This document shows, one piece after another, positions 285 through 17,192 of a DNA stretch of 25,339 bases; positions within the stretch are counted from its first letter, which is position 1, and every line of letters starts with the position of its first letter. This DNA comes from Sulfurimonas sp. Lineage in GTDB: Bacteria > Campylobacterota > Campylobacteria > Campylobacterales > Sulfurimonadaceae. The position numbers and the translations under genes are program-made. The DNA is taken from the NCBI GenBank assembly GCA_002733155.1, contig NVUO01000006.1:243564-268902 (forward strand), given 5' to 3'. Below the pieces are notes generated by a model. The model did not search any database. It worked only from the letters and a program-made list of their open reading frames with translations, and was not told the origin of the DNA.

Positions 285-321
285 AACATGCATATATTTT
301 TGTATATAAATTATGCATGTT
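285..321 (+). terminator. Inverted repeat, possible terminator of the small gene
   Basis: Perfect 9-bp arms, AACATGCAT (285-293) and ATGCATGTT (313-321), enclose a 19-base AT-rich loop. The dyad lies 17 bases after the stop of the small membrane protein gene and upstream of the next promoter. No T-run follows the second arm, so an intrinsic terminator is not proven; a protein-binding dyad is the alternative, since each arm itself contains the palindrome ATGCAT. Confidence 0.35.
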
Positions 322-377
322 ACCTATAGTTACATAAATATTTAAACTAACCTTAAATTTTAAATTAAGTTAAAAAA

Positions 378-465: not shown

Positions 466-792
466 ATGGTTGAAACAGTGATTATGACAAATGATATTCT
501 TGCAGAAGATTTTTTAACAATATTTATATCATCTACTCTTGTTTTAATATTTGGAGGATTCTACGTTGGTATATATACAGCTGTTAAAGTGAATTTACTT
601 AAAAAATGGACTATGCCTATTGCTTACATATTCTGGGCTTTAACAGGCTATTGTATGTATGTAATGGGAAGTTTAATGCATATTAATACTTTTACAGCTA
701 AGGCTTTAGTAGTAGCTGCTTTTGGTTTGTTATTACTTCCACATGCAGTTTATTACATGCAACACAAAGTTCATGAAGAAAATAAACATTAG
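466..792 (+). CDS. Small membrane protein leading the norCB operon
   Basis: A 108-residue protein with three predicted membrane segments (about residues 15-38, 49-70 and 77-97) and a charged, His-containing tail. It is the first gene after the FNR-type site and ends 40 bases before norC, so it is very likely co-transcribed with norC and norB. The start at 466 is chosen because GAGGAG lies at 451-456; an ATG seven codons in (484) is less well placed. I recognise no named family. Position suggests a role in nitric oxide reductase assembly, stability or quinol/heme supply, but this is inference from context only. Standard cNor accessory genes norQ, norD, norE and norF are not seen nearby. Confidence 0.8.
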   Translation: MVETVIMTNDILAEDFLTIFISSTLVLIFGGFYVGIYTAVKVNLLKKWTMPIAYIFWALTGYCMYVMGSLMHINTFTAKALVVAAFGLLLLPHAVYYMQHKVHEENKH

Positions 793-832: not shown

Positions 833-1519
833 GTGGCTAAAAAATCTGTATGGAGTGATAATCGTTTCTGGCAAAGATCAGCAGCGTGGATTACAGGATT
901 TGCATCTATTTTACTTATTTGGTTAACGTTTGATACGATTCCACAAATAACGATGGGTACTGATGCAGATTTAAAACAAGGTGTAACAAAAAGGGTTCCA
1001 GGGCCTACAGTTATTAACTACAAAATTACTTATGAAATGAATGCTAAACGTATGCATGAAATTCCAGTAATTGGTGGTATGAATGCAGAAGGTACTTCAG
1101 CATTTGAAGAAAAAGAATTATTCTTTGGACGTGATGACTGGTCTGAAGAGGAAGCATCAGAACTACTTCACTTAGGTAAGTTAGGTTCTCAAGCTAAAAA
1201 CTGTATGGATTGTCATACACTACTTGGAAATGGTGCATATTATGCTCCAGATTTAACAAAAGCATGGTTAGATCCAGCATGGGGACCTGAGGGTTCAATG
1301 CAAGCAATTACTGGGAAAAGTACAAAAGAAGAAGCCATGGCTGAATTTTTACAACATCCATCAAACTATCCAACTCATGCTCGTATGATGCCAAATCTTG
1401 GTATTACTGAAAAAGAGGCACATGGTTTAGTAGCTTTTCTTAAACATATGTCATCAATTGATACAAATGGTTTTCCAAGAAACTTTGGGAAAATACAAGG
1501 AGCTGTTCATGGCAAATAA
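833..1519 (+). CDS. norC: Nitric oxide reductase, cytochrome c subunit NorC
   Basis: The 228-residue membrane-anchored c-type cytochrome that passes electrons from periplasmic donors to NorB in the cNOR complex (2 NO to N2O). One N-terminal membrane helix spans about residues 14-31. The single heme c site is C124-M-D-C127-H128, and the MMP at 185-187 (M185 or M186) supplies the probable sixth ligand. The flanking 'LGNGAYYAPDL' stretch is typical of NorC. Translation starts at GTG 833, with AGGAGG at 822-827. The end overlaps the norB start by 11 bases, giving tight translational coupling. It is somewhat longer than NorC of pseudomonads because of a longer periplasmic segment before the heme site (judged from memory of the family). 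Confidence 0.95.
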   Translation: MAKKSVWSDNRFWQRSAAWITGFASILLIWLTFDTIPQITMGTDADLKQGVTKRVPGPTVINYKITYEMNAKRMHEIPVIGGMNAEGTSAFEEKELFFGRDDWSEEEASELLHLGKLGSQAKNCMDCHTLLGNGAYYAPDLTKAWLDPAWGPEGSMQAITGKSTKEEAMAEFLQHPSNYPTHARMMPNLGITEKEAHGLVAFLKHMSSIDTNGFPRNFGKIQGAVHGK

Positions 1520-2933
1520 TTATTTAACTACTGAATCTAAAAAATTAGCTACGTGGTATTTTACTTTTGCTGCAATTATTTTTGGAGCACAACTATTATT
1601 TGGTCTAGTAGCTGCTATTCAATATGTAATGCCAGGTTTTCTTTTTGAAATCATAGATTTCTCAATTGCTAGAATCTTACATATTAATGCTTTAGTTGTA
1701 TGGATGGTATTTGCAATGATTGGTTCAGTTTATTGGTTATTACCTGATGAAACTGGAATTGAGACTGTAGGTATTGGTCTAGGTAAACTTTTATACTGGG
1801 TATTTGTTGCAGCTATTGTTATAGTTATATTAGTATTTCTATTAGTTCAAGTTGGACCAGCTGATCAAACTACTATATGGTTTATTACAGAGGGTCGTGA
1901 GTATATTGAGGCTCCACGTTGGGCTGATATTGGTATAGTTATTGTTGTCCTTGGTTTTATTTATAATCTTTATGCAACAGGAATGAAAGGTAATCGTTCA
2001 GGTATCATAACTGTACTTATGGCTGATATGTTAGCATTTGCTGGTATCTATCTAGCTGGTATGGGCTATACTGATAATATCTCTGTTGATCAATACTGGT
2101 GGTGGTGGGTAATTCACTTATGGGTTGAGGCTACTTGGGAAGTTTTCGTTGGTGCGATTGCAGCTTATGGTCTTATCACTATGATTGGAGCTCACCGTAA
2201 AGTAGTTGAAATGTGGTTATGGATTGAGGTAGCTATGCTATTTGGTTCAGGAATACTCGGTATTGGACATCACTATTTCTGGATTGGTACACCTGAGTAC
2301 TGGTGGGAAATTGGAGCATTATTTTCTGCACTGGAGCCATTACCATTGGTTGCTATGTTTGTCCACGTTCTTTATGACTGGGGCAAGATGCAAGGTGAGC
2401 AGAATGCTCAAGGTAAAGAGATATCTGTTATTACAAATAAACCAGCCTTTACATGGTTTGTTCTTAATGCATTTGGTAACTTCTTAGGTGCAGGTATTTG
2501 GGGATTCTTCCACACATTACCACAAGTTAACCTTTATACACATGGTACACAGTTTACATCAGCTCACGGACACTTAGCGTTCTTTGGAGCATATGCAACT
2601 ATACTTATTGGAATGTTTTATCTTGCTGTTCAAGGTAAAAATGGTATTAAAATAATGAAATCAACTAAAAAATCTATCTGGGCAACTAGTATGATTGTTG
2701 GTGGTGTTATGGGTATGACTATAGCACTTACAATAGCTGGTTATGTTCAAGTTCTTGTATCTCGTGCACAAATGGGTGCTACTTGGGCTGGTTATTTTGA
2801 TGGACAAGCTGGTATGTGGTTCGCTCAAGGTATGGACTGGAGACTTTTAATGGGTGTTATTACATTCGTAGGTTTCTTAATACTTGTAGCTGACTTATTA
2901 AGTATCGGTAAAGCCGATCATCACGAAAGATAA
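1509..2933 (+). CDS. norB: Nitric oxide reductase, catalytic subunit NorB
   Basis: The 474-residue heme-copper-oxidase-superfamily integral membrane subunit that reduces NO at a heme b3/non-heme iron centre. Visible ligands match the cNOR pattern: H58 (low-spin heme b), H203 and E207 in 'HLWVEATWE' plus H254/H255 (FeB), and H353/H355 (heme b3 and heme b). The conserved Glu in 'ALEPLPL' is present. The length is that of the short cytochrome-c-dependent form, not the quinol-fused qNOR, agreeing with the adjacent norC. The frame is open further upstream to 1458, but ATG 1509 is chosen because AAGGAG lies at 1497-1502, six bases before it. NorB of other bacteria needs NorQ/NorD for metal insertion; neither is encoded in this window. 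Confidence 0.96.
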   Translation: MANNYLTTESKKLATWYFTFAAIIFGAQLLFGLVAAIQYVMPGFLFEIIDFSIARILHINALVVWMVFAMIGSVYWLLPDETGIETVGIGLGKLLYWVFVAAIVIVILVFLLVQVGPADQTTIWFITEGREYIEAPRWADIGIVIVVLGFIYNLYATGMKGNRSGIITVLMADMLAFAGIYLAGMGYTDNISVDQYWWWWVIHLWVEATWEVFVGAIAAYGLITMIGAHRKVVEMWLWIEVAMLFGSGILGIGHHYFWIGTPEYWWEIGALFSALEPLPLVAMFVHVLYDWGKMQGEQNAQGKEISVITNKPAFTWFVLNAFGNFLGAGIWGFFHTLPQVNLYTHGTQFTSAHGHLAFFGAYATILIGMFYLAVQGKNGIKIMKSTKKSIWATSMIVGGVMGMTIALTIAGYVQVLVSRAQMGATWAGYFDGQAGMWFAQGMDWRLLMGVITFVGFLILVADLLSIGKADHHER

Positions 2934-3095: not shown

Positions 3096-3114
3096 ACATA
3101 AGTTTTACTAGGTT

Positions 3115-3135
3115 GCAGGCTCCAATGGGGCCTGC
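3115..3135 (+). promoter_or_regulatory. GC-rich intercistronic hairpin before nirS
   Basis: GCAGGCTCC (3115-3123), loop AAT, GGGGCCTGC (3127-3135) form a 9-bp stem with one T-G wobble. It is strikingly GC-rich for this AT-rich region and sits between the small peptide gene and the nirS ribosome site (AAGGAG 3151-3156). No T-run follows, so it is unlikely to be a full terminator. Likely roles are mRNA processing or stabilisation of the nirS segment, or partial attenuation; which one is inference. Confidence 0.6.
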
Positions 3136-3163
3136 TAGTTATCAAGTTTTAAGGAGAAATAAA

Positions 3164-4804
3164 ATGAGATTAAATAAATTAGTTATGTCAGTCGCTGCTA
3201 TGGCAGTAGTAGGATCAAGTCTTTTTGCTGGTACGTCTAGCATGGACGTAGAAAAAGTATTCGAAAGAGAATGTCAAGGTTGTCATGGTCCAAATCACGA
3301 GGGTGGAGTTGGTTCAGATTTACGTCCATCTGTAACAGCTAAAAAAAATGCTTATGAACTTGCTGAAACTATCCGCAATGGTCGTGCAGGTACTGCAATG
3401 CCATCATTTAAACAAAAATTTTCTAAAACTGATGCTGATAAAATGGTTGATTATATTCAACATTTTAAAGGTAAAAAAATGGCTGTTCTTACAATGGAGG
3501 CTGTTAAAAAAGGATGGAAATCACTTAATGATAGAATGACATTCTTTAAAAAATATCCAAAAGCAGCTGATGTTAAGAAAAATACTGATATCTGTTTCGT
3601 AACAGAAAGAGATGCTGCTCGTGTTGTATTCTTAGATGGTACTACTGGTAAAATTTTATCAAGACATCCTGCCGGTTTTGCAGTGCATGTTACAGTAACT
3701 AACAAGCGTCAACCTCGTTATGCTTACTCAATCTCTAGATCAGGTTTAGTTACTATGTTTGACCTTAATACTCCGGGTCAACAAAAAATTGCTCAGATCC
3801 AAGTTGGTTCTGATTCTCGTGGTCTTGCAGTATCTCCAGATGGAAAATACTTAATGGCAGGTAACTACGTACCAAGTGGAGCAATATTAATGGATGCAAT
3901 GACTCTTGAGCCATTAAAAGTTTACCCAACATCAAGTGTAATTGATACTGAAGGTAATATTGGTTCTTCTCGTGTAGCTGGTATCTATGATACTCCTTAT
4001 GGCCCATATATTGCATTTGCTCTTAAAGATGCAGGTCATGTATATATCATAGATTATTCTAAACCAAACTTTCCAATCGTTGGAGATATTCCAAATATTG
4101 GTAAAATTCTTCATGATGGTTTCTTAAATGAAGGTAAAGAGATTGGTAGATATTTATTTCAAGCATCACAAGGTTCTGATGTTATTGGTGTAGTTGATTT
4201 TAAAACTAAATCTTTAGTTGCTAAGATTTATACTGGTCCTTCAGCTAAGCCACATCCAGGTCAAGGTTCATCTTGGTATAACCATGAGTTAAATGCTCAA
4301 CTTGGTGCTACAGTTAATATGAATCTTGGTCAGGTAACTATCTGGGATGATAACTTTGATGTAATCCGTCAAATCCCTACAGCTGGTGGTGGATTATTCA
4401 TCGGTACATCTGAGCATACACCTTTTCTTTGGGCTGATAATGTACTTGGTGGATCAGCTAACTGGAATAAAATTTACTTAATTAATAAACAAACTCTTGA
4501 AGTTGATAGAATCATCACTGTTGGTACGACTAAAGGTACAGTTACAGATCCTGTAACTCACAAAGTTATGTACAAATGGAAAGTGCCAACTGTAAAAGGC
4601 AAAGATGGTAAAGCTCTTAGTCCACGTATACTTCATGCTGAACCAGCTAACCATGGTCACTGGACTATGATTTCTGAATGGAATTGTGGTCGTATAGGTA
4701 TCTATGAAGCTAAAACAGGTAAATTTGTTAAATATATCAATGGTTTAACTACACCTACTTTTACTTACTCTATCGAGCATAGACAAACTATCCCAGGTGC
4801 ATAA
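3164..4804 (+). CDS. nirS: Cytochrome cd1 nitrite reductase NirS
   Basis: The 546-residue periplasmic enzyme that reduces nitrite to nitric oxide. A Sec signal peptide covers about residues 1-23. The heme c domain has C37-Q-G-C40-H41. The C-terminal eight-bladed propeller binds heme d1: H175 in 'GFAVHVTVT' corresponds to the proximal d1 ligand (H182 of Pseudomonas aeruginosa), H364 in 'KPHPGQG' and H418 in 'SEHTPFLW' to the two catalytic histidines (H327 and H369). The 'ILHDG' motif is also present. The presence of both active-site histidines favours NirS over NirN or NirF. Start ATG 3164 follows AAGGAG at 3151-3156; an upstream in-frame ATG at 3113 would wreck the signal peptide. It is last in the nor-nirS operon and followed by a terminator. 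Confidence 0.95.
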   Translation: MRLNKLVMSVAAMAVVGSSLFAGTSSMDVEKVFERECQGCHGPNHEGGVGSDLRPSVTAKKNAYELAETIRNGRAGTAMPSFKQKFSKTDADKMVDYIQHFKGKKMAVLTMEAVKKGWKSLNDRMTFFKKYPKAADVKKNTDICFVTERDAARVVFLDGTTGKILSRHPAGFAVHVTVTNKRQPRYAYSISRSGLVTMFDLNTPGQQKIAQIQVGSDSRGLAVSPDGKYLMAGNYVPSGAILMDAMTLEPLKVYPTSSVIDTEGNIGSSRVAGIYDTPYGPYIAFALKDAGHVYIIDYSKPNFPIVGDIPNIGKILHDGFLNEGKEIGRYLFQASQGSDVIGVVDFKTKSLVAKIYTGPSAKPHPGQGSSWYNHELNAQLGATVNMNLGQVTIWDDNFDVIRQIPTAGGGLFIGTSEHTPFLWADNVLGGSANWNKIYLINKQTLEVDRIITVGTTKGTVTDPVTHKVMYKWKVPTVKGKDGKALSPRILHAEPANHGHWTMISEWNCGRIGIYEAKTGKFVKYINGLTTPTFTYSIEHRQTIPGA

Positions 4805-4943: not shown

Positions 4944-5023
4944 TATTCTTAAGTAATAAAACTAAATGCTTTTTAAAAGCTTTAATTTGATAAAATATTA
5001 CTTGAACGTATATGAGGTTTATT

Positions 5024-5347
5024 ATGCAAAGATATATATTATCAGTTTTATTTTTTACAATATCACTTTACTCATCAGAGATATATACAAAAAAACAACT
5101 AACAGGAAAAGAAGTATTTGAGACTTATTGTTGGGGATGTCACCATCAAACAGCTATGGCCTTTGGTCCACCTTTTTCTGAGATAGCAGCCAAAAGAACT
5201 TATGAAGAAATTCAAGCTTATATAATTGACCCTGAGCTTATGTACAAAAGTTTTGGTTACAAACGAAGTGCTATGAGCAAACTAAAAACTACTCAAGAAG
5301 AAAGAGAAGCTGTCGCAAAATATATACTCTCATATAAAGGCAAATAA
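5024..5347 (+). CDS. nirC: Small periplasmic cytochrome c, NirC-like
   Basis: A 107-residue secreted monoheme cytochrome c. The N-terminus to about residue 18 is a signal peptide. Heme binding is C36-W-G-C39-H40, with M84 in 'RSAMSKL' the likely sixth ligand. Cytochromes of this type (NirC) in heme d1 clusters donate or accept electrons for NirS or for the last steps of heme d1 formation. The start at 5024 is preferred because GAGG (5014-5017) is six bases upstream; an ATG four codons earlier (5012) lacks a ribosome site. The stop overlaps the nirJ start (TAATG). Assignment as NirC rests on size, heme type and neighbours; an alternative is a NirM-like c551 donor. Confidence 0.8.
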   Translation: MQRYILSVLFFTISLYSSEIYTKKQLTGKEVFETYCWGCHHQTAMAFGPPFSEIAAKRTYEEIQAYIIDPELMYKSFGYKRSAMSKLKTTQEEREAVAKYILSYKGK

Positions 5348-6465
5348 TGTTTAGATTATCAAACCTAATATCATCAGTAGTTGAGGGGAAAAAAGAAAGA
5401 ATCTTAGATGGCTCTATAGCTATTTGGAATTTTACCAACCGTTGTAACCTTTCTTGTATGCATTGTTATTCTAAGTCAACATTAGATGAAATTGATACTT
5501 TAACAACAAAACAAATTAAAAAAACTATCTTAGAGATGAAAAAAAATGGCATTAAGTTTATAATTTTTTCAGGGGGTGAGCCTCTAACTAGAAAAGACTT
5601 ATTTGAGATAGCTGATTTTTGTAAAGAAAATGGCATTATTACTTATTTATCTAGTAATGGATTATATTTTACAAAAACTAATGTACAAAAAATTGTGGAT
5701 ACATTTAACTATATAGGTATATCTATTGACGGAGACGAGCCTACACATGATTATTTCCGTGGGCTAAAGGGTGCCTATAAAGAGACCCTTAAAGCTGTTA
5801 AGCTTGCTAATTCTACTGGGGCTAAAGTTGGTATACGTTTTACTATTACAAAAGAGACTATTAACTCTTTAGAATATATTTTTGATTTAGCTGAGAGAGA
5901 AAATATTCCAAAAATATATATATCTCACCTTGTCTATTCTGGTCGTGGTTTAGACAACTTAGAAATGGACTTAACAAAGGAGCAAAGAAGGACTTCAGTA
6001 GAGTTCATTCTAAAAAAAGCATTTGAGTATTATGAGACTGCTAGGGATATTGAGATAGTTACTGGTAATATGGAGATGGATGCGATTTTATTTTTAAATG
6101 AATTTTCTAAAAAATATCCAGATTTAAAAGATATAATGCGAAAAAGACTTGTAACTTGGGGTGGAAACTCTGCTGGACGTAGACTTCTAAATATTAATTC
6201 TGAAGGTGATGTAAGACCTGATCCATTTTTTCCACTTACAATTGGAAATATTTTAAAAGAGGATTTTACAAATATCTGGCAGGATGGTAATCTCTTAAAT
6301 CAACTTCGCGTCCATCCAAGGAAACAAATAACTGGCCTGTGCTCAGACTGTGAACAAATAGATATTTGTAATGGTGGTTCACGTGCACGAGCTTATGCAA
6401 TTAGTGGAGATATATGGGCTGAAGACCCATCATGTTATCTAAGTTTAGAAGAAAGAAGGAGATAA
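5347..6465 (+). CDS. nirJ: Radical SAM heme d1 biosynthesis protein NirJ
   Basis: A 372-residue cytoplasmic radical SAM enzyme. The [4Fe-4S]-SAM cluster ligands are C33, C37 and C40 in 'CNLSCMHC', followed by 'FSGGEPLTRKDLF'. A SPASM-like C-terminal region carries further cysteines ('GLCSDCEQIDICNGG' and 'DPSCY'), which can ligate a second cluster. NirJ acts on 12,18-didecarboxysiroheme, removing two propionate chains during heme d1 synthesis. Related enzymes (AhbC/AhbD of alternative heme synthesis) are similar, but its position between nirC and nirF next to nirS makes NirJ the best call. It starts by one-base overlap with nirC and is followed three bases later by nirF. Confidence 0.92.
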   Translation: MFRLSNLISSVVEGKKERILDGSIAIWNFTNRCNLSCMHCYSKSTLDEIDTLTTKQIKKTILEMKKNGIKFIIFSGGEPLTRKDLFEIADFCKENGIITYLSSNGLYFTKTNVQKIVDTFNYIGISIDGDEPTHDYFRGLKGAYKETLKAVKLANSTGAKVGIRFTITKETINSLEYIFDLAERENIPKIYISHLVYSGRGLDNLEMDLTKEQRRTSVEFILKKAFEYYETARDIEIVTGNMEMDAILFLNEFSKKYPDLKDIMRKRLVTWGGNSAGRRLLNINSEGDVRPDPFFPLTIGNILKEDFTNIWQDGNLLNQLRVHPRKQITGLCSDCEQIDICNGGSRARAYAISGDIWAEDPSCYLSLEERRR

Positions 6466-6467
6466 AA

Positions 6468-7610
6468 ATGAAAAAAATATTACTAGGTCTTGGCTTAAGT
6501 GCTACACTTTTTATATCTGCAAATGCTCAGAGTATAAGCTCTTTATTTCAAATGCTAAATACAAATGAAAAAATATTTGTAGTTGAAAGAGAAAAAAGTT
6601 CATTAGCTGTAATAGAAAACGGTATTACGCGTAACCATATTGTTGGTATGCATAATATGAATCATGGAGTTGTAAAGTTTGAAGGTGATGATGCTTATGT
6701 AATTTCTCGTGATGGATATGTTATAAAGTTTGACCCTAGGACTGAAAAAAAAATTAAAGAAATAAAAACATCTGATAGTGCTATTGGATTCACTATAAGT
6801 AAAAACTTCTTAGCTGTAGCTAATTATGCTAAAAAAAGTGTAGATATCTTAGATAGAGACTTAAATCCACTTCAATCATTTGAGACTGGAAGTAAAAATG
6901 TTGGTATTAAGGTATATAAAAACTATTTAATCTTTTCGCAAATGGATAATGATAAAATTACAGTATTAAAAGATTTAAATTTTGGAAAGGCAAAACCAAA
7001 CTTTGTAATATACAAAGAATTTAAAGATGTAGGTATTATGCCCTTTGACGCTATGATTAAAAACAATAATTTTATAGTTGGTTTTTTTAAATCTGACTTC
7101 TTTGGAGTTTTAGACTTAGATACTATGAAATATAAAAAAATAAAAATTCTTTTAGAAGATAAAAAACCTGTACTTAAAGTTCCGCACTTTGGTTTTTGGA
7201 GTATTAGTGATTCTGAGGTATTTATACCAGCTGTAGGAAACAATAAGGTCTTAGTATATACATCTGATTTTAAATTTATTAAAACTATAGAGACTGAGGG
7301 TCTCCCTGTATTTACAGCCCTAAGCCCAGATAAAAAATATCTAGCTGTTACATTTTCTGGTAAAAAATTTCCAGTAATTCAAATTATAGATACTAAAACA
7401 TTTAAGATTATTAAAAGATTTGAGTTTAAGGGTAAGGTATTACATCTAAGGTGGTCAAATACTAGACCAAATCTTTATATATCTGTAAATGATGCAAATA
7501 AAGTAGTTGTTATTAATACAAAAGAGTGGTTTGTGAGCCGTGAAATGTTTAACATTAACAAACCCTCAGGTATATTTATTTATGAACAAAAGAAAAAGAG
7601 ACTAAAATAA
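6468..7610 (+). CDS. nirF: Heme d1 biosynthesis protein NirF
   Basis: A 380-residue eight-bladed beta-propeller protein related to the d1 domain of NirS but without a heme c domain. NirF is required for a late step of heme d1 formation; the exact reaction is not fully settled. An N-terminal signal peptide ('MKKILLGLGLSATLFISANA') without a lipobox Cys predicts a soluble periplasmic protein. H62 and H66 in 'GMHNMNHG' lie where NirF proteins have a conserved heme-binding His. The start at 6468 is chosen because AGGAG lies at 6457-6461; an in-frame start at 6432 would sit inside nirJ and spoil the signal peptide. The stop overlaps the next start by one base. No separate nirN gene is seen here. 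Confidence 0.88.
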   Translation: MKKILLGLGLSATLFISANAQSISSLFQMLNTNEKIFVVEREKSSLAVIENGITRNHIVGMHNMNHGVVKFEGDDAYVISRDGYVIKFDPRTEKKIKEIKTSDSAIGFTISKNFLAVANYAKKSVDILDRDLNPLQSFETGSKNVGIKVYKNYLIFSQMDNDKITVLKDLNFGKAKPNFVIYKEFKDVGIMPFDAMIKNNNFIVGFFKSDFFGVLDLDTMKYKKIKILLEDKKPVLKVPHFGFWSISDSEVFIPAVGNNKVLVYTSDFKFIKTIETEGLPVFTALSPDKKYLAVTFSGKKFPVIQIIDTKTFKIIKRFEFKGKVLHLRWSNTRPNLYISVNDANKVVVINTKEWFVSREMFNINKPSGIFIYEQKKKRLK

Positions 7611-8350
7611 TGGCTAAGGTGTATTTAACTGGTGCAGGGCCAGGGGATATTGAATTATTAACTCTAAAAGCATTTAAAGTAATCAAAGAAGCTGATGTAA
7701 TTATTTATGACCGTTTAGCTAATCCAGATATTTTAGAGATGGCTAAAGATGGATGCGAGTTTGTATATGTAGGCAAAGAGGATGGTAAGCATATAATACC
7801 TCAGGATGACATAAACGAGGTTATTTATCAAAATTCTTTAAAATATGAGAATGTAGTACGTCTAAAAGGTGGTGATCCATTTGTTTTTGGACGAGGAGGT
7901 GAAGAGGCTCAGTATCTGCATGAAAGATCTATAAAGTTTGAAATCATTCCTGGAATCACTTCAGCTATATCTGCTCCAGCTTATGCAGGCATTCCAGTAA
8001 CACACCGTGGTGTAGCTGTAAGTTTTCGTGTAGTAACTGGTCATGAATCACCTGATAAAAAAGTATCTCAGATACCATGGGAAAATTTTAAAACAAATGA
8101 CACTATAGTATTTTTAATGGGTCTTCATAATTTACAAAAAATTAGTAAAAAACTAATGGAAATTGGAAAACCAGCTGATTATCCTTGTGCTGTAATTTCT
8201 AAGGGCACTACTAAGAATCAGTTGGTAGTGGTAGGGACTCTTGGCGATATAGTCGAAAAAGCCAAAGATGTACCAACTCCAGCACTTATAGTAGTGGGTG
8301 AGGTTGTAAAACTTCGTGAACAATTAAAATGGTTTGAGGGCGATGCCTAG
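7610..8350 (+). CDS. nirE: Uroporphyrinogen-III C-methyltransferase (SUMT)
   Basis: A 246-residue SAM-dependent methyltransferase that converts uroporphyrinogen III to precorrin-2, the first committed step to siroheme and heme d1. Signatures: 'VYLTGAGPGDIELLTLKA' at the N-terminus, 'DRLAN', 'RLKGGDPFVFGRGGEEA', 'PGITSA' and 'TPALIVVGEVV' at the C-terminus. The length matches stand-alone CobA/NirE; there is no fused HemD or CysG dehydrogenase domain, so precorrin-2 oxidation and ferrochelation must come from elsewhere. In the nir operon the functional name NirE is reasonable, but the sequence alone cannot separate NirE from CobA. It overlaps the ODP-kinase gene by eight bases. Confidence 0.93.
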   Translation: MAKVYLTGAGPGDIELLTLKAFKVIKEADVIIYDRLANPDILEMAKDGCEFVYVGKEDGKHIIPQDDINEVIYQNSLKYENVVRLKGGDPFVFGRGGEEAQYLHERSIKFEIIPGITSAISAPAYAGIPVTHRGVAVSFRVVTGHESPDKKVSQIPWENFKTNDTIVFLMGLHNLQKISKKLMEIGKPADYPCAVISKGTTKNQLVVVGTLGDIVEKAKDVPTPALIVVGEVVKLREQLKWFEGDA

Positions 8351-9815
8351 AAAAATTGCGCCTAATATTTATTGGGTAGGTATGCATTTAAAAAATGATC
8401 CTTTCCAGTGCCACCCATACCTAATCGTAAATGAAGATGAATCTATCTTAATTGACCCAGGATCTATGTTAGAATTTGATGAGACTGTTAAAAAAGTTCA
8501 AAAACTCATAAACATAAAGTCTATAAGATACATCATACTTCATCATCAAGACCCAGACTTAGCTGCAGCAGTTCCAGCTATAGAGAAACTGATAAATAGA
8601 GATGATTTAGAGATAGTTACACATTCACGTATGTCTGTACTTATAAAACATTATCTAGTCTCTTCATCTTATTATGAGATAGATAAACATAATCATAAAC
8701 TTATAACATCTACAGGTTTTGAGTTAGAGTTTTTTACTACACCGTATTGCCACTCACCAGGGGCTTTTGTATCTTATGATACTTTATCAAAGGTTTTGTT
8801 TTCAGGTGATATATTTGGTGGGATAGAAGAGAGCTGGGAGTTTTATGCAGATAAAGACTACTTTAACAAAGCTAAACAATTTCATCAAGAGTATATGCCT
8901 AGTAAAGATATATTTAATTATGCACTTTCAAAAATAGAAAAACTTGATATAAACCTGATAGCACCCCAGCATGGCTCTATCATACAAAAAAAATATATAT
9001 CTAAACTTATACAAGATATGAAAAATCTTGACTGTGGTTTATATATAGAAGATAAATATAATCAAGAACTAACAAATACTATAGCTGAGTTAAAAGAGAA
9101 AGATAGCCTCTTATTTGAACAATCAAAAAGAGCTGAGATTGGTGAGATGATTGGCAATATTGCACATCAGTGGAGGCAACCTCTAGCTATTATTAATGCA
9201 GCATTATCTATACTAAGAGAAAAAAATAATCAAAATATTTTAGATAAAAAAGATACAGAAGAAAAACTGCAAAAGATGGAGCAAAGAGTTATATATATGT
9301 CTAATACTATTGAAGATTTTATGTCTTATTACAGACCAGGGAAGGCAAAATCTAATTTTCATATATATGATGCTATAGATAAGTCCCTTAATCTTGTAAA
9401 TATTTTTAATAAAAATATAGACCTAAATATATCTGTAGATAAGACTATAAAAATAAACGGTTACATAAATGAATTTATACAAGTTTTGGTATCTATCCTC
9501 TCTAATATAAATGATATTATTTTTTCAAAAAAGCTTTTAGTAGCAAAAATAGATATTGGGCTAAATATACATAAACAATATATTGTATTATGCATATCTG
9601 ATAACTGTGGTGGGATAGATGATGCTTTTATATCTAAAATATTTGACCCATATTTCACAACTAAACATAAGTCTATGGGTACTGGGCTTGGTTTACATAT
9701 AGCCAAAATGATTATTGAAGAGAATATGAAAGGCAAATTAAGCGTAATCAATTTAAAAGATAAAAATTCTAAAAAAATTGGTGCAAAATTTACTATAAAG
9801 ATAAACAATGAGTGA
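8343..9815 (+). CDS. ODP (di-iron, MBL-fold) domain fused to a histidine kinase
   Basis: A 490-residue cytoplasmic sensor kinase. Residues about 1-240 form a metallo-beta-lactamase fold of the ODP/flavodiiron type: metal-ligand motifs are H68-Q-D70-P-D72, H94 ('THSRMS'), H137 ('YCHSPG'), D156 ('FSGDIFGG') and H210 ('APQHGS'). Such domains carry a non-heme di-iron centre that binds O2 or reacts with NO. A coiled-coil linker (about 235-270) leads to the kinase: phosphoacceptor H275 in 'AHQWRQPL', an N-box-like segment, and ATP lid motifs 'DNCGGI' and 'GTGLGLHIAK'. No membrane segment is visible. The ATG at 8343 is preferred over TTG 8334. It overlaps the SUMT gene and the following response regulator gene, so the pair is part of the heme d1 operon and probably senses O2 or NO to tune denitrification (inference). 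Confidence 0.88.
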   Translation: MPRKIAPNIYWVGMHLKNDPFQCHPYLIVNEDESILIDPGSMLEFDETVKKVQKLINIKSIRYIILHHQDPDLAAAVPAIEKLINRDDLEIVTHSRMSVLIKHYLVSSSYYEIDKHNHKLITSTGFELEFFTTPYCHSPGAFVSYDTLSKVLFSGDIFGGIEESWEFYADKDYFNKAKQFHQEYMPSKDIFNYALSKIEKLDINLIAPQHGSIIQKKYISKLIQDMKNLDCGLYIEDKYNQELTNTIAELKEKDSLLFEQSKRAEIGEMIGNIAHQWRQPLAIINAALSILREKNNQNILDKKDTEEKLQKMEQRVIYMSNTIEDFMSYYRPGKAKSNFHIYDAIDKSLNLVNIFNKNIDLNISVDKTIKINGYINEFIQVLVSILSNINDIIFSKKLLVAKIDIGLNIHKQYIVLCISDNCGGIDDAFISKIFDPYFTTKHKSMGTGLGLHIAKMIIEENMKGKLSVINLKDKNSKKIGAKFTIKINNE

Positions 9816-10488
9816 TAAAATAAAAGATATCTCTATACTTCTAGTAGAAGATGAAACAGAGTTAAGCGAATATTTAAAAGAGTATTTAGAGATGTTTTTT
9901 TATAGGGTATATAATGCCCCAAACGGTGACATTGCTTATGATATATACAAACAAAAAAGACCAGACATTATACTCACAGATATAAACATGCCACATATGA
10001 ATGGTTTTAATCTTGTATCAAAAATAAGAAAAAATGACAACAAAACAAAAATCATTATCATGAGTGCTCATTCAGAACAAGATAAATTATTACAAGCTAT
10101 TAAACTAAATTTAGTTACATACCTAATTAAACCTATTCAAAATGATATACTTAAAAAAATTTTATTAGATACAGTAAAATTAATTAGATACACTGAAAAA
10201 AGATTATACTTAAGTGAAAATATTTTTTGGGATATAGATACAGATACTCTTTGGAAAAAAAATCAATTGATAAATATTAAAGATAAAGAAAAAAAATTGA
10301 TAAAACTCTTATGCTCAAAACCAAACCATGCCTTTAGTGCAAAGGAGATATTTGATTATATAAATAAAGAAAAAAAAACTTTCTCACAACATGCAGTTAC
10401 ATCTTTAATGAAAAGGTTACGCATAAAACTACCAGAAGACTTTATTTTAAATATTTATGGTTCTGGATATAAGGTAGTAGCTTATTAA
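9808..10488 (+). CDS. OmpR-type response regulator, partner of the ODP-kinase
   Basis: A 226-residue response regulator. The receiver domain (residues about 7-125) has the acidic pocket 'LLVEDE', phosphoacceptor D58 in 'IILTDINMP', the conserved 'MSAH' Ser and the Lys of 'YLIKP'. The C-terminal part (about 135-226) is a winged-helix DNA-binding domain ending in 'LNIYGSGYKVV', typical of OmpR/PhoB. It overlaps the kinase gene by eight bases, marking them as a cognate pair. It is the last gene of the nirC-J-F-E operon. Targets are unknown; autoregulation of the nir/nor promoters is a reasonable guess but no direct-repeat operator is evident. Confidence 0.9.
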   Translation: MSDKIKDISILLVEDETELSEYLKEYLEMFFYRVYNAPNGDIAYDIYKQKRPDIILTDINMPHMNGFNLVSKIRKNDNKTKIIIMSAHSEQDKLLQAIKLNLVTYLIKPIQNDILKKILLDTVKLIRYTEKRLYLSENIFWDIDTDTLWKKNQLINIKDKEKKLIKLLCSKPNHAFSAKEIFDYINKEKKTFSQHAVTSLMKRLRIKLPEDFILNIYGSGYKVVAY

Positions 10489-15108: not shown

Positions 15109-15149
15109 TTGATGTATATCAATCTTTTTATATAGTGCTTCGGTATAAT
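15109..15149 (+). promoter_or_regulatory. Perfect FNR-type site and promoter of the PAS/MCP taxis operon
   Basis: TTGAT-GTAT-ATCAA (15109-15122) is an exact FNR consensus dyad. TATAAT lies at 15144-15149, 28.5 bases from the dyad centre, placing the site near -41 in the class II position. This is the same architecture as at the nor-nirS and nir biosynthesis promoters. The transcript would start near 15156 and reach the PAS gene at 15194. Confidence 0.8.
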
Positions 15150-15193: not shown

Positions 15194-15736
15194 ATGTCTA
15201 AACATAATTTGTCTAAACTTGACGCCCCTACTAATATATCAAATAAAGAAAAAAAACTCTCAGAAAATGACTTTATAGTATCAAAAACTGATACTAAGGG
15301 TAAAATAATATACTGCAACGAGATATTTAGTCAAATTGCAGCTTATCCAGCCTCAGAACTAATTGGTTCTAATCATAATATCATTAGACATCCAGATATG
15401 CCTAGAATAGCCTTTAAGATAGCATGGGATTTAATACAAGACAAACAAGAATTTTTCGGTTTTGTTAAAAACCTTCGTTCAGATGGTGGATTTTACTGGG
15501 TATTTACATATATAACTGCTGACTTAGATAATAATGGAAAAATTTTAAGTTATACATCAGTTAGAAGAAAAGCAACACAATCTGCAATTGATACTATAAG
15601 CCCAATATATAAATTACTCTTAGCTGCTGAAAAAACAGGTGGTATGAAAGCCTCTGCTGAACTTTTAGGTGCATTTTTAGATGAAAATAAAACTACTTAT
15701 AATGAACTTATAATAAATCTTCAAAAGGGGGTCTAA
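15194..15736 (+). CDS. Aer/CetB-type PAS redox sensor protein
   Basis: A 180-residue soluble protein carrying one PAS domain at about residues 30-135. Signature segments match the FAD-binding PAS of Aer: '[20 protein letters not shown]', '[20 protein letters not shown]' and '[15 protein letters not shown]'. It lacks any kinase or methyl-accepting part. It ends one base before the chemoreceptor gene, so the pair forms a split energy-taxis receptor analogous to Campylobacter CetB (PAS) and CetA (transducer). The PAS flavin would report redox or electron-transport state to the partner. The start at 15194 has only a weak upstream GGA. The C-terminal 45 residues are helical and may dock on the partner. 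Confidence 0.86.
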
Positions 15737-15737
15737 A

Positions 15738-17192
15738 ATGAATATGATTAAAAACCTTAATATAGTTATACTTTTAATTTTAGTAATTATATCTGCTGCA
15801 ATATTAGCTGTTAACTCTCAAATTATCATTGCTTCAATATTAATAATTATAAGTCTAATATCTTTATTTATACCTCAAAGTAAAGATAAAAGAAGAAGTG
15901 ATGACGAATTAATGGATAAAATTGCTACAACTTTAGAGAATGTAAAAGATGGTAAATTATCTGTTCGTATTATTTTACATAATAATGAAACGGACTTAGA
16001 AAACATAGCTTGGAATATAAATAAATGTCTAGATCAGGTTGAAATAGTTTTAAGGGAGAGCCGTAATACAATTGATGCGATTGGTAGGGGGGAGATGTAT
16101 AGATCAATGTTCCCATCAGGACTTCTAGGTGAATTTAAAGATACAGCTATTAGGATTCAAAAAGCTGTATCTTCTATGAAAGCAAATGAGCAATATAAAG
16201 TAATGGGTCAACTATCTAGCTCTTTTAGTGAATTTAATGGTGGGATGAAAGGTAATCTTGACATTATTACTACTGATATTAATAAAACAGAAAAATCATT
16301 TCAAGAAGTTACAAAAAAAACATCAGAAGCTTCAGAATTAGCAAAAAATACCCTTAAGGCTGTTGAGACTACAAATACTGAAATCTCAAGTTTAAATGAA
16401 CTTGTTATAAATACAACAGATTCTATATCAGAACTTGACGGTAATGTAAATGATATAACTATGGTTGTAAACCTAATAAAAGATATAGCAGATCAAACAA
16501 ATTTACTTGCGCTTAATGCAGCTATTGAAGCAGCCCGTGCCGGTGAGCATGGTCGAGGGTTTGCAGTCGTTGCAGATGAAGTCCGAAAACTAGCTGAACG
16601 CACTCAAAAAGCTACAGGCGAGATAAGCATAACTATACAAAACCTTCAACAGCAATCATCTATAATCTCTGAAAATGCAACCTCTATGAATGAAATAGCA
16701 CATACAACTAACAATACCATGGATGTATTTTCACAAACTATGTATAATTTTACAAATGAGTTAACAACTACATCTAAACTATCAAATAAAAGTAGTTTTG
16801 CTCTATTTTTAACAAACTACAAAATTCACCATATTTTATTTAAGTCAAATGCTTACTCATCAGTAATAAATGCAAAGGTAACAGATAAATTTAAAGAAGA
16901 TTATGCACATTGTGGTTTTGGCACTTGGTATTATGGTGCTGGCAAAAAACTTTTTGGCTCAAATAAAACTTACAAAAAAATGGAGTTTCACCATAAAGAG
17001 TTTCATAACCTGATAAATGAAAATATCGATTGCGCACTAGCTGGTACATGTACATCTAAAAGTATATCTAAAGATAAGGTTATGAAGAAATTTCAAGATG
17101 CCGAGCTACATTCCAATAAACTATTTTCTCTTTTTGATGACTTAGCAGATGAGCTTGGAGCTACTATAGATATGAGTGAAGTTTTAGCTTAA
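15738..17192 (+). CDS. Chemoreceptor (MCP) with C-terminal zinc-binding CZB domain
   Basis: A 484-residue methyl-accepting chemotaxis protein. Two closely spaced membrane helices (about residues 7-24 and 28-46) leave almost no periplasmic domain, so it cannot bind an outside ligand and depends on the neighbouring PAS protein. A HAMP-like segment (about 52-150) leads to the signalling coiled coil whose conserved tip is '[28 protein letters not shown]'-like (split here: [10 protein letters not shown] and VRKLAERT near residues 255-290). The C-terminus is a CZB domain with likely zinc ligands H364 or H365, C392 in 'CGFGTWY', and H418/H419/H423. CZB domains in other receptors respond to zinc and hypochlorite. 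No receptor-tail pentapeptide for CheR is seen. Its stop overlaps the converging CNNM gene by four bases. Confidence 0.9.

Follow-up and report, generated by a model that had tools for sequence, protein, structure and literature searches.

Introduction

The closest known relatives of the protein treated here are the chemotaxis ODPs of Treponema denticola (TDE2498) and Thermotoga maritima (PDB 6qnm, 6r9n, 6qrq, 6qwo), which couple to methyl-accepting chemotaxis proteins (MCPs) and CheA. ODP is known as an O2 sensor in chemotaxis (PMC7666581). Here, we describe a histidine kinase with an ODP-type front domain (ODP-HK), encoded in a stretch of 25,339 nucleotides from Sulfurimonas sp. (contig NVUO01000006.1), which as a whole is called the window and to which all coordinates refer. 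Together with an OmpR-type response regulator (RR), ODP-HK is encoded at the end of a gene cluster that converts nitrite to nitrous oxide. It resembles the chemotaxis ODPs in fold, ligand set and proposed sensory role, in the Gln preceding the last His and in the loss of the third His of motif 2, but is joined in one protein to a histidine kinase, with a transcriptional regulator as its partner.

Flavodiiron proteins (FprA, ROO, flavorubredoxin) share with ODP-HK a di-iron fold of the metallo-β-lactamase (MBL) type and the ligand pattern H-x-D/E-x-D, H, D, H. FixL/FixJ and other heme-based two-component systems likewise feed an O2-type input into a kinase by helical coupling, with FixL/FixJ combining a heme-PAS sensor and a FixJ-type regulator in contrast to the di-iron MBL fold and OmpR-type regulator of the present pair. 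The nitric oxide (NO) regulators DNR, NnrR and NorR are single-protein regulators without a kinase; their physiological place beside an FNR-type input is the one proposed here for the pair. In the same phylum, RacRS of Campylobacter jejuni is also a two-component system for the control of low-O2 respiration; RacS is not known to sense O2 itself and is reported to depend on a periplasmic disulphide (PMC5656828). A 2019 study had already grouped ODPs encoded with signaling genes and ODPs fused to signaling domains, as recounted in the TREND paper (PMC7319448). ODP sensing and ODP-signaling fusions are thus known as a class; the place of such a kinase among denitrification genes, of which no description was found in the literature searched, appears to be new and is moderately surprising.

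Campylobacterota select among respiratory chains by sensing O2. The arrangement described here points to an oxygen or nitric-oxide switch specific to the nor-nir cluster, and a soluble di-iron kinase with its regulator, encoded beside the enzymes that they possibly control, makes a compact system. On balance, and by a narrow judgement, we favor the view that the pair is an O2-responsive, possibly NO-responsive, two-component system tuning nor-nir. If true, ODP sensing would reach beyond chemotaxis into transcription, and in sulfidic redox gradients the fluxes of NO and N2O would come under the control of a new metal chemistry.

Results

The two genes of the pair are located as follows:

8343..9815, plus strand: ODP-HK, with the ODP domain at residues 1 to about 235, a helical linker at about 237-265, HisKA (H275) and HATPase_c
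9808..10488, plus strand: OmpR/PhoB-type response regulator, phospho-acceptor D58 (PF00072 and PF00486)

ODP-HK comprises 490 amino acids, and its ATG start codon (8343) lies within nirE, which ends at 8350. Pfam assigned three domains to it, each above cut-off, namely ODP (PF19583, residues 21-211), HisKA (267-331) and HATPase_c (379-487), with the PF19583 match (3.7e-63, 213.3 bits against a cut-off of 27.2) covering the full profile (1-194 of 194). Since the model of the whole protein was weak (pLDDT 69.2), all statements on the fold refer to the model of the ODP domain only. This model superposes on ODP crystal structures. Crystallised ODPs were the nearest structures to the front domain by sequence and by Foldseek, and in VIA-align they tied with flavodiiron proteins as its neighbors. 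The profile match and these neighbors bear out the ODP/flavodiiron-type fold that a first-pass annotation, made from the letters of the window alone, had claimed and had proposed to check by such a structure comparison.

The residues H68, D70, D72, H137, D156 and H210 are invariant in an alignment of 120 orthologues and align in sequence with the di-iron ligands H, D, D, H, D and H of the crystallised ODPs. Equally invariant is Gln209, the residue that marks ODPs. In ODPs a Gln of motif 5 stands in for the third His of motif 2 (PMC7785958), and ODP-HK follows this rule with L73 and Q209. Unlike flavodiiron proteins, it lacks the H-x-E-x-D-H motif, reading HQDPDL with Leu73 in place of the motif's next His, it has Gln209, and the flavodoxin (FMN) domain that follows their MBL-type domain is absent, with HisKA and HATPase_c in its place according to Pfam. 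The first-pass annotation had numbered the six ligands exactly, had omitted Gln209 and had listed H94 as a seventh. H94 corresponds to no known ODP or flavodiiron ligand, because Ser occupies this position in the ODPs of T. maritima and T. denticola. In the orthologues and the other fused ODPs examined, however, H94 never varies, and together with H24 and H67 it forms a set of extra histidines that these fused proteins keep and the five free ODPs do not have. The front end of ODP-HK is thus predicted to be a di-iron gas-binding domain of the ODP type.

As judged from the sequence, a coiled coil lies between this domain and a complete histidine kinase, in which the HisKA phospho-acceptor H275 and the HATPase_c boxes DNCGG, FDPYFTT and GTGLGL are all found, confirming the fusion and the position of H275 given in the first-pass annotation. 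Since a scan of ODP-HK for hydrophobic stretches found no strong one (best 19-residue window 1.27), the protein is probably soluble and cytoplasmic.

The coupled OmpR-type regulator, also anticipated in the first-pass annotation, contains the Response_reg and Trans_reg_C domains, and its receiver aspartate D58 is backed by an alignment of 40 regulator orthologues. Across 34 loci, kinase and regulator distances correlated with a Mantel r of 0.857, in comparison to 0.56-0.67 against nirS, nirE and norB. Among 12 genomes examined, all four with the kinase contained the regulator at 47-57% identity, whereas none of the eight nirS-positive genomes without the kinase did (best match at most 38% identity). 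Kinase and regulator thus co-vary; phosphotransfer between them is predicted.

Of 7997 candidates scored in a protein database search, 7417 reached E ≤ 1e-30; all 120 matches listed contained the ODP family and HATPase_c, and the remainder may include kinases without ODP. Of 48 loci found in the genome collection, the ODP-kinase is encoded in 27 (L002-L028), and the other 21 match different kinases or fragments. nirE lies directly upstream of the ODP-kinase and the regulator directly downstream in 26 of the 27 loci each, and nirS is present on 23 of the 27 pieces, the others being three short contigs and L025 (Sulfurovum).

For a survey of the phylum, 397 Campylobacterota genomes were drawn evenly, and at least 67% identity over the ODP query was required for the ODP-kinase and at least 56% identity for nirS. 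Not counted as ODP-HK were the matches in 48 of 72 genomes (free ODPs, ODP-GGDEF proteins, other kinases, flavodiiron-like proteins and the 744-residue variant of genome G361), and the matches of only 30-33% identity in 19 of 71 genomes were not counted as nirS. With these thresholds, the ODP-kinase was found in 24 genomes, nirS in 52 and both in 23, so that the co-occurrence with nirS that the first-pass annotation had named as a check was observed in 23 of 24 carriers. Within the window's family (52 genomes), which we take to be that of Sulfurimonas, as we take genus g50 to be Sulfurovum-like, the ODP-kinase was present in 18 of 26 genomes with nirS and in 1 of 26 without. Fisher tests on such counts take no account of the relatedness of the genomes and are given no weight here. 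In all 18 family genomes with both genes, these lie at most about 5 kb apart on the same contig, and in many of the family's denitrifiers the pair follows nirE.

In a tree of NirS, NirJ, NirE and NorB from 39 operons, L076, which lacks the pair, groups as sister with L024, which has it (support 0.97), and at least one loss of the pair is therefore well supported. L075 joins these two at 0.56, and the placement of L070-L074 had supports of 0.007 (with L071) and 0.26 (for L022 outside), so that absence of the pair there may be loss or ancestral. Three or more losses, as initially drawn from this tree, are weakened by the low node support. Past nirE, the scanned pair-less operons encode Sel1/TPR, phosphoribosyltransferase-like, TetR and thioesterase proteins and one without a family. 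Replacement by an Rrf2 regulator was rejected, as close relatives (57-61%) of the Rrf2 gene beside the G307 operon occur in two pair-carrying genomes and one pair-less genome besides G307; the same applies to CRP-type regulators, whose counts overlap (1-6 in 18 linked-pair genomes, 3-5 in 8 without the pair).

The gene order of the cluster is orf108-norC-norB-nirS-nirC-nirJ-nirF-nirE-ODP-HK-RR, and the genes upstream of the pair are:

466..792, plus strand: orf108, first gene of the operon (small, hydrophobic, conserved product)
833..1519, plus strand: norC-like cytochrome c (PF00034)
1458..2933, plus strand: norB-like nitric oxide reductase large subunit (PF00115)
3113..4804, plus strand: nirS, cytochrome cd1 nitrite reductase (PF02239 and cytochrome c)
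5012..5347, plus strand: nirC-like cytochrome c (PF00034)
5347..6465, plus strand: nirJ-like radical SAM protein of heme d1 biosynthesis (best match TIGR04051 with 366 bits, under the cut-off of 515)
6432..7610, plus strand: nirF-like (PF02239, cytochrome c domain absent)
7610..8350, plus strand: nirE-like uroporphyrinogen-III C-methyltransferase (TIGR01469, above cut-off)

orf108 matched no Pfam or NCBIfam family and precedes norC in most norC-holding loci. Shared bases connect nirC and nirJ (1), nirF and nirE (1), nirE and ODP-HK (8) and ODP-HK and RR (8). The tie of the pair to nirC-J-F-E by gene overlaps, on which the first-pass annotation had relied, is therefore real, yet the cluster is longer and has norC, norB and nirS upstream. 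Between nirS and nirC a block with a promoter-like -10 element appeared by eye to be common to many loci, and because of it nirCJFE-ODP-HK-RR may have its own transcription start besides the operon promoter. In G010, a multiheme (C554-like) cytochrome gene (L088:11880-12992, minus strand) is inserted at this place.

Three elements were distinguished in the promoter region:

318..334, plus strand: direct repeat TGTTACCTATAGTTACA, candidate response-regulator site (consensus of the linked promoters TGTTTCA-N4-GTTACA, two mismatches here)
351..369, plus strand: second conserved element, starting with CCTTAA
378..391, plus strand: FNR/CRP-like box TTGATATATGTCAA, its start 60 bp downstream of that of the direct repeat

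The name FNR-like follows what we take to be the FNR consensus. The elements were counted in 46 distinct operon promoters, 30 linked to the pair and 16 unlinked, the latter meaning that the piece carries no pair, although five of these genomes (L090-L094) have one elsewhere. This set leaves out loci without an orf108 match (L102, L088, short contigs), with less than 150 upstream bases (L072) or with repeated promoters (e.g., L105, L108, L109). The FNR-like box was found with at most one mismatch in 30/30 linked and 15/16 unlinked promoters, in contrast to the direct repeat, which with at most two mismatches was present in 26/30 linked and 1/16 unlinked promoters (1/7 when nine unlinked promoters of other families were removed). 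In linked promoters the repeat starts 60-61 bp before the box. The second element occurred in 24/30 linked promoters and in none of the 15 unlinked ones with the box. In L102, whose piece lacks norCB, a weak repeat (two mismatches) and an FNR-like box stand directly before nirS with the 60-bp spacing kept.

On the genome scale, the exact repeat was present once per genome, at the nor-nir operon by coordinates, in seven of ten linked genomes and absent from three, and the reversed pattern was not found in any of 18 genomes searched. In the multi-genome search, 4 of 12 exact sites were away from any nor-nir operon. The window's genome contains a second exact repeat before a presumably acl-like gene, which was taken as chance, and a looser pattern with at most one mismatch gave 21 matches there, equal to the 21 of the reversed control. 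A near-identical repeat was found in all eight Sulfurovum-like genomes searched (seven exact, one with one mismatch) and precedes nuoA in 7/7 readable cases, the eighth lying at a contig end; nuoA was identified by Pfam in L139 and L146. The form TGTTTC[AG]CATNGTTACA is seen upstream of nuoA in L139, L140, L143, L146, L147, L148 and L160.

Elsewhere in the window (15194-17192), a gene for a PAS protein is followed by one for an MCP with a CZB domain, together a split energy-taxis pair of the Aer-like type. A perfect FNR-like box, TTGATGTATATCAA, lies at 15109-15122, 85 bp upstream of the PAS gene. The homologous pair of genome G037 (67 and 65% identity) has an exact TGTTTCA-N4-GTTACA repeat upstream instead.

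Discussion

Sequence and model together show an ODP fold with all the ligands of ODPs, a complete kinase and, next to it, an OmpR-type regulator, as well as the conservation of the ligands, the linkage to the nir genes and the co-variation of the two proteins. In the mechanism that we propose, the metal, the gas, the direction of response and the DNA target are those that we infer. The reduced di-iron site would bind O2 (or NO), as in the Treponema ODP; binding would alter the ODP dimer, and the coiled coil would relay this change to phosphorylation of H275, from which phosphoryl transfer would set whether D58 of the regulator is phosphorylated. The regulator might then tune the nor-nir promoter jointly with an FNR-type protein, giving the operon a gas input based on neither heme nor iron-sulphur (Fe-S) clusters. 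O2 is the most likely ligand by analogy, because characterised ODPs are described as O2 sensors.

A number of observations weigh against a denitrification switch. Eight of the 26 nirS-positive members of the window's family do not have the ODP-kinase. The FNR-like box could already provide anaerobic control. For Sulfurimonas denitrificans, a review reports mostly constitutive expression of respiratory genes (PMC6682613), which disfavors a strong switch at least in this species. The repeat does not follow the pair strictly: linked pairs occur without it (L024, L089) or with three mismatches (L021, L022), G307 has an exact repeat upstream of nor and no pair, and three of the eight Sulfurovum-like genomes with the nuoA-type repeat have no pair either. 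The repeat was therefore ruled out as proof of the regulator's target and cannot be assigned to the regulator of ODP-HK; a similar site is probably read by another conserved regulator.

Furthermore, the pair occurs outside nir. It forms a two-gene unit between an ilvB-like and a ppx/gppA-type gene in L025 and in five Sulfurovum-like genomes, L079-L083 (Pfam for L079 and L082, tblastn for all six), with ilvH and lpxD following ilvB in L079-L083. These five genomes have nirS either on a different contig or at a distance of more than 1 Mb. In all six loci, the kinase is preceded by an FNR-like box containing one mismatch. In genome G358, the pair is present with no nirS match, has no FNR-like box before the kinase and is flanked by a thioredoxin gene before and an anaerobic ribonucleotide reductase gene after it. 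Because of these copies, the system is wider than its nir linkage, and an exclusive role in denitrification is disfavored. Of the O2 or NO sensor of denitrification envisaged in the first-pass annotation, fold, kinase, regulator and co-occurrence with nirS thus stand, whereas the five unlinked pairs and G358 speak against exclusivity.

Among the alternatives, NO made by NirS might be the physiological ligand and the pair the NO branch required by denitrifiers beside FNR. We regard this as unlikely, though worth keeping in mind, since the pair is encoded together with norCB and nirS, the FNR-like box may supply O2 control and flavodiiron NO reductases are structural neighbors. Gln209 and Leu73, however, match ODP and not the flavodiiron pattern of His ligands, and the G358 pair, without a nirS match and beside the ribonucleotide reductase, fits O2 better. 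Neither one Rrf2 regulator nor the CRP-type counts gave a complementary pattern; other NO regulators were not searched.

The pair could also regulate other genes and be a mere passenger on the nir transcript, as the stand-alone units beside the ilvB and ppx/gppA-type genes may indicate, and as the repeat at the nuoA promoter there would allow, though this also occurs in genomes without the pair. Linkage in 18/18 family genomes with both genes, the presence of nirS in those same five Sulfurovum-like genomes and the repeat and box kept at nirS in L102 speak against it, and we doubt this explanation.

A sensor of iron status, in which the kinase would respond to metal loading itself and thereby adjust the heme- and iron-rich enzymes of denitrification to the iron supply, seems improbable to us. 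The title of the original ODP paper names an Fe[II] and oxygen sensor, and a large part of the operon is devoted to heme proteins or the synthesis of heme d1, but the genes scanned around the stand-alone pairs are not iron genes (Fur sites were not looked at). Fusion by chance of a kinase to an ODP domain that catalyses O2 or NO reduction is very improbable in spite of the domain's flavodiiron-like ligands and fold, as there is no flavodoxin or rubredoxin domain for electron delivery, the ligands are of the ODP type and ODP is recurrently fused to or paired with kinases and cyclases.

Returning to an O2-responsive pair that tunes nor-nir, a more far-reaching version is put forward tentatively, and we would sooner doubt than accept it as a whole. 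In this version, a di-iron kinase free of heme and Fe-S would act in Sulfurimonas and its relatives as an O2/NO switch devoted to denitrification, the regulator would bind 60 bp upstream of the FNR-type site and turn nor-nir transcription into an AND gate, the pair would fill the role of the DNR, NnrR or NorR of Proteobacteria, and H24, H67 and H94 would retune the site relative to free ODPs.

Other ODP proteins were seen in the genome collection. ODP-GGDEF (diguanylate cyclase) fusions with all ODP ligands kept occur in several Campylobacterota families (L050, L053, L055, L057, L060). Two ODP-like proteins (L064:7344-8846, minus strand; L068:8004-9521, plus strand) have lost most metal ligands to Asn, Glu and Tyr and are possibly metal-free regulators; the GGDEF match of the former is also weak. 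The 744-residue ODP kinase of G361 (L077:6732-8966, minus strand) is encoded beside a REC-GGDEF-EAL protein in a genome with nirS and without a nir-linked pair. Free-standing ODP genes adjoin those for a 308-residue kinase (L063), a GGDEF-EAL protein (L061) and dCache-PAS and REC-PilZ proteins (L066).

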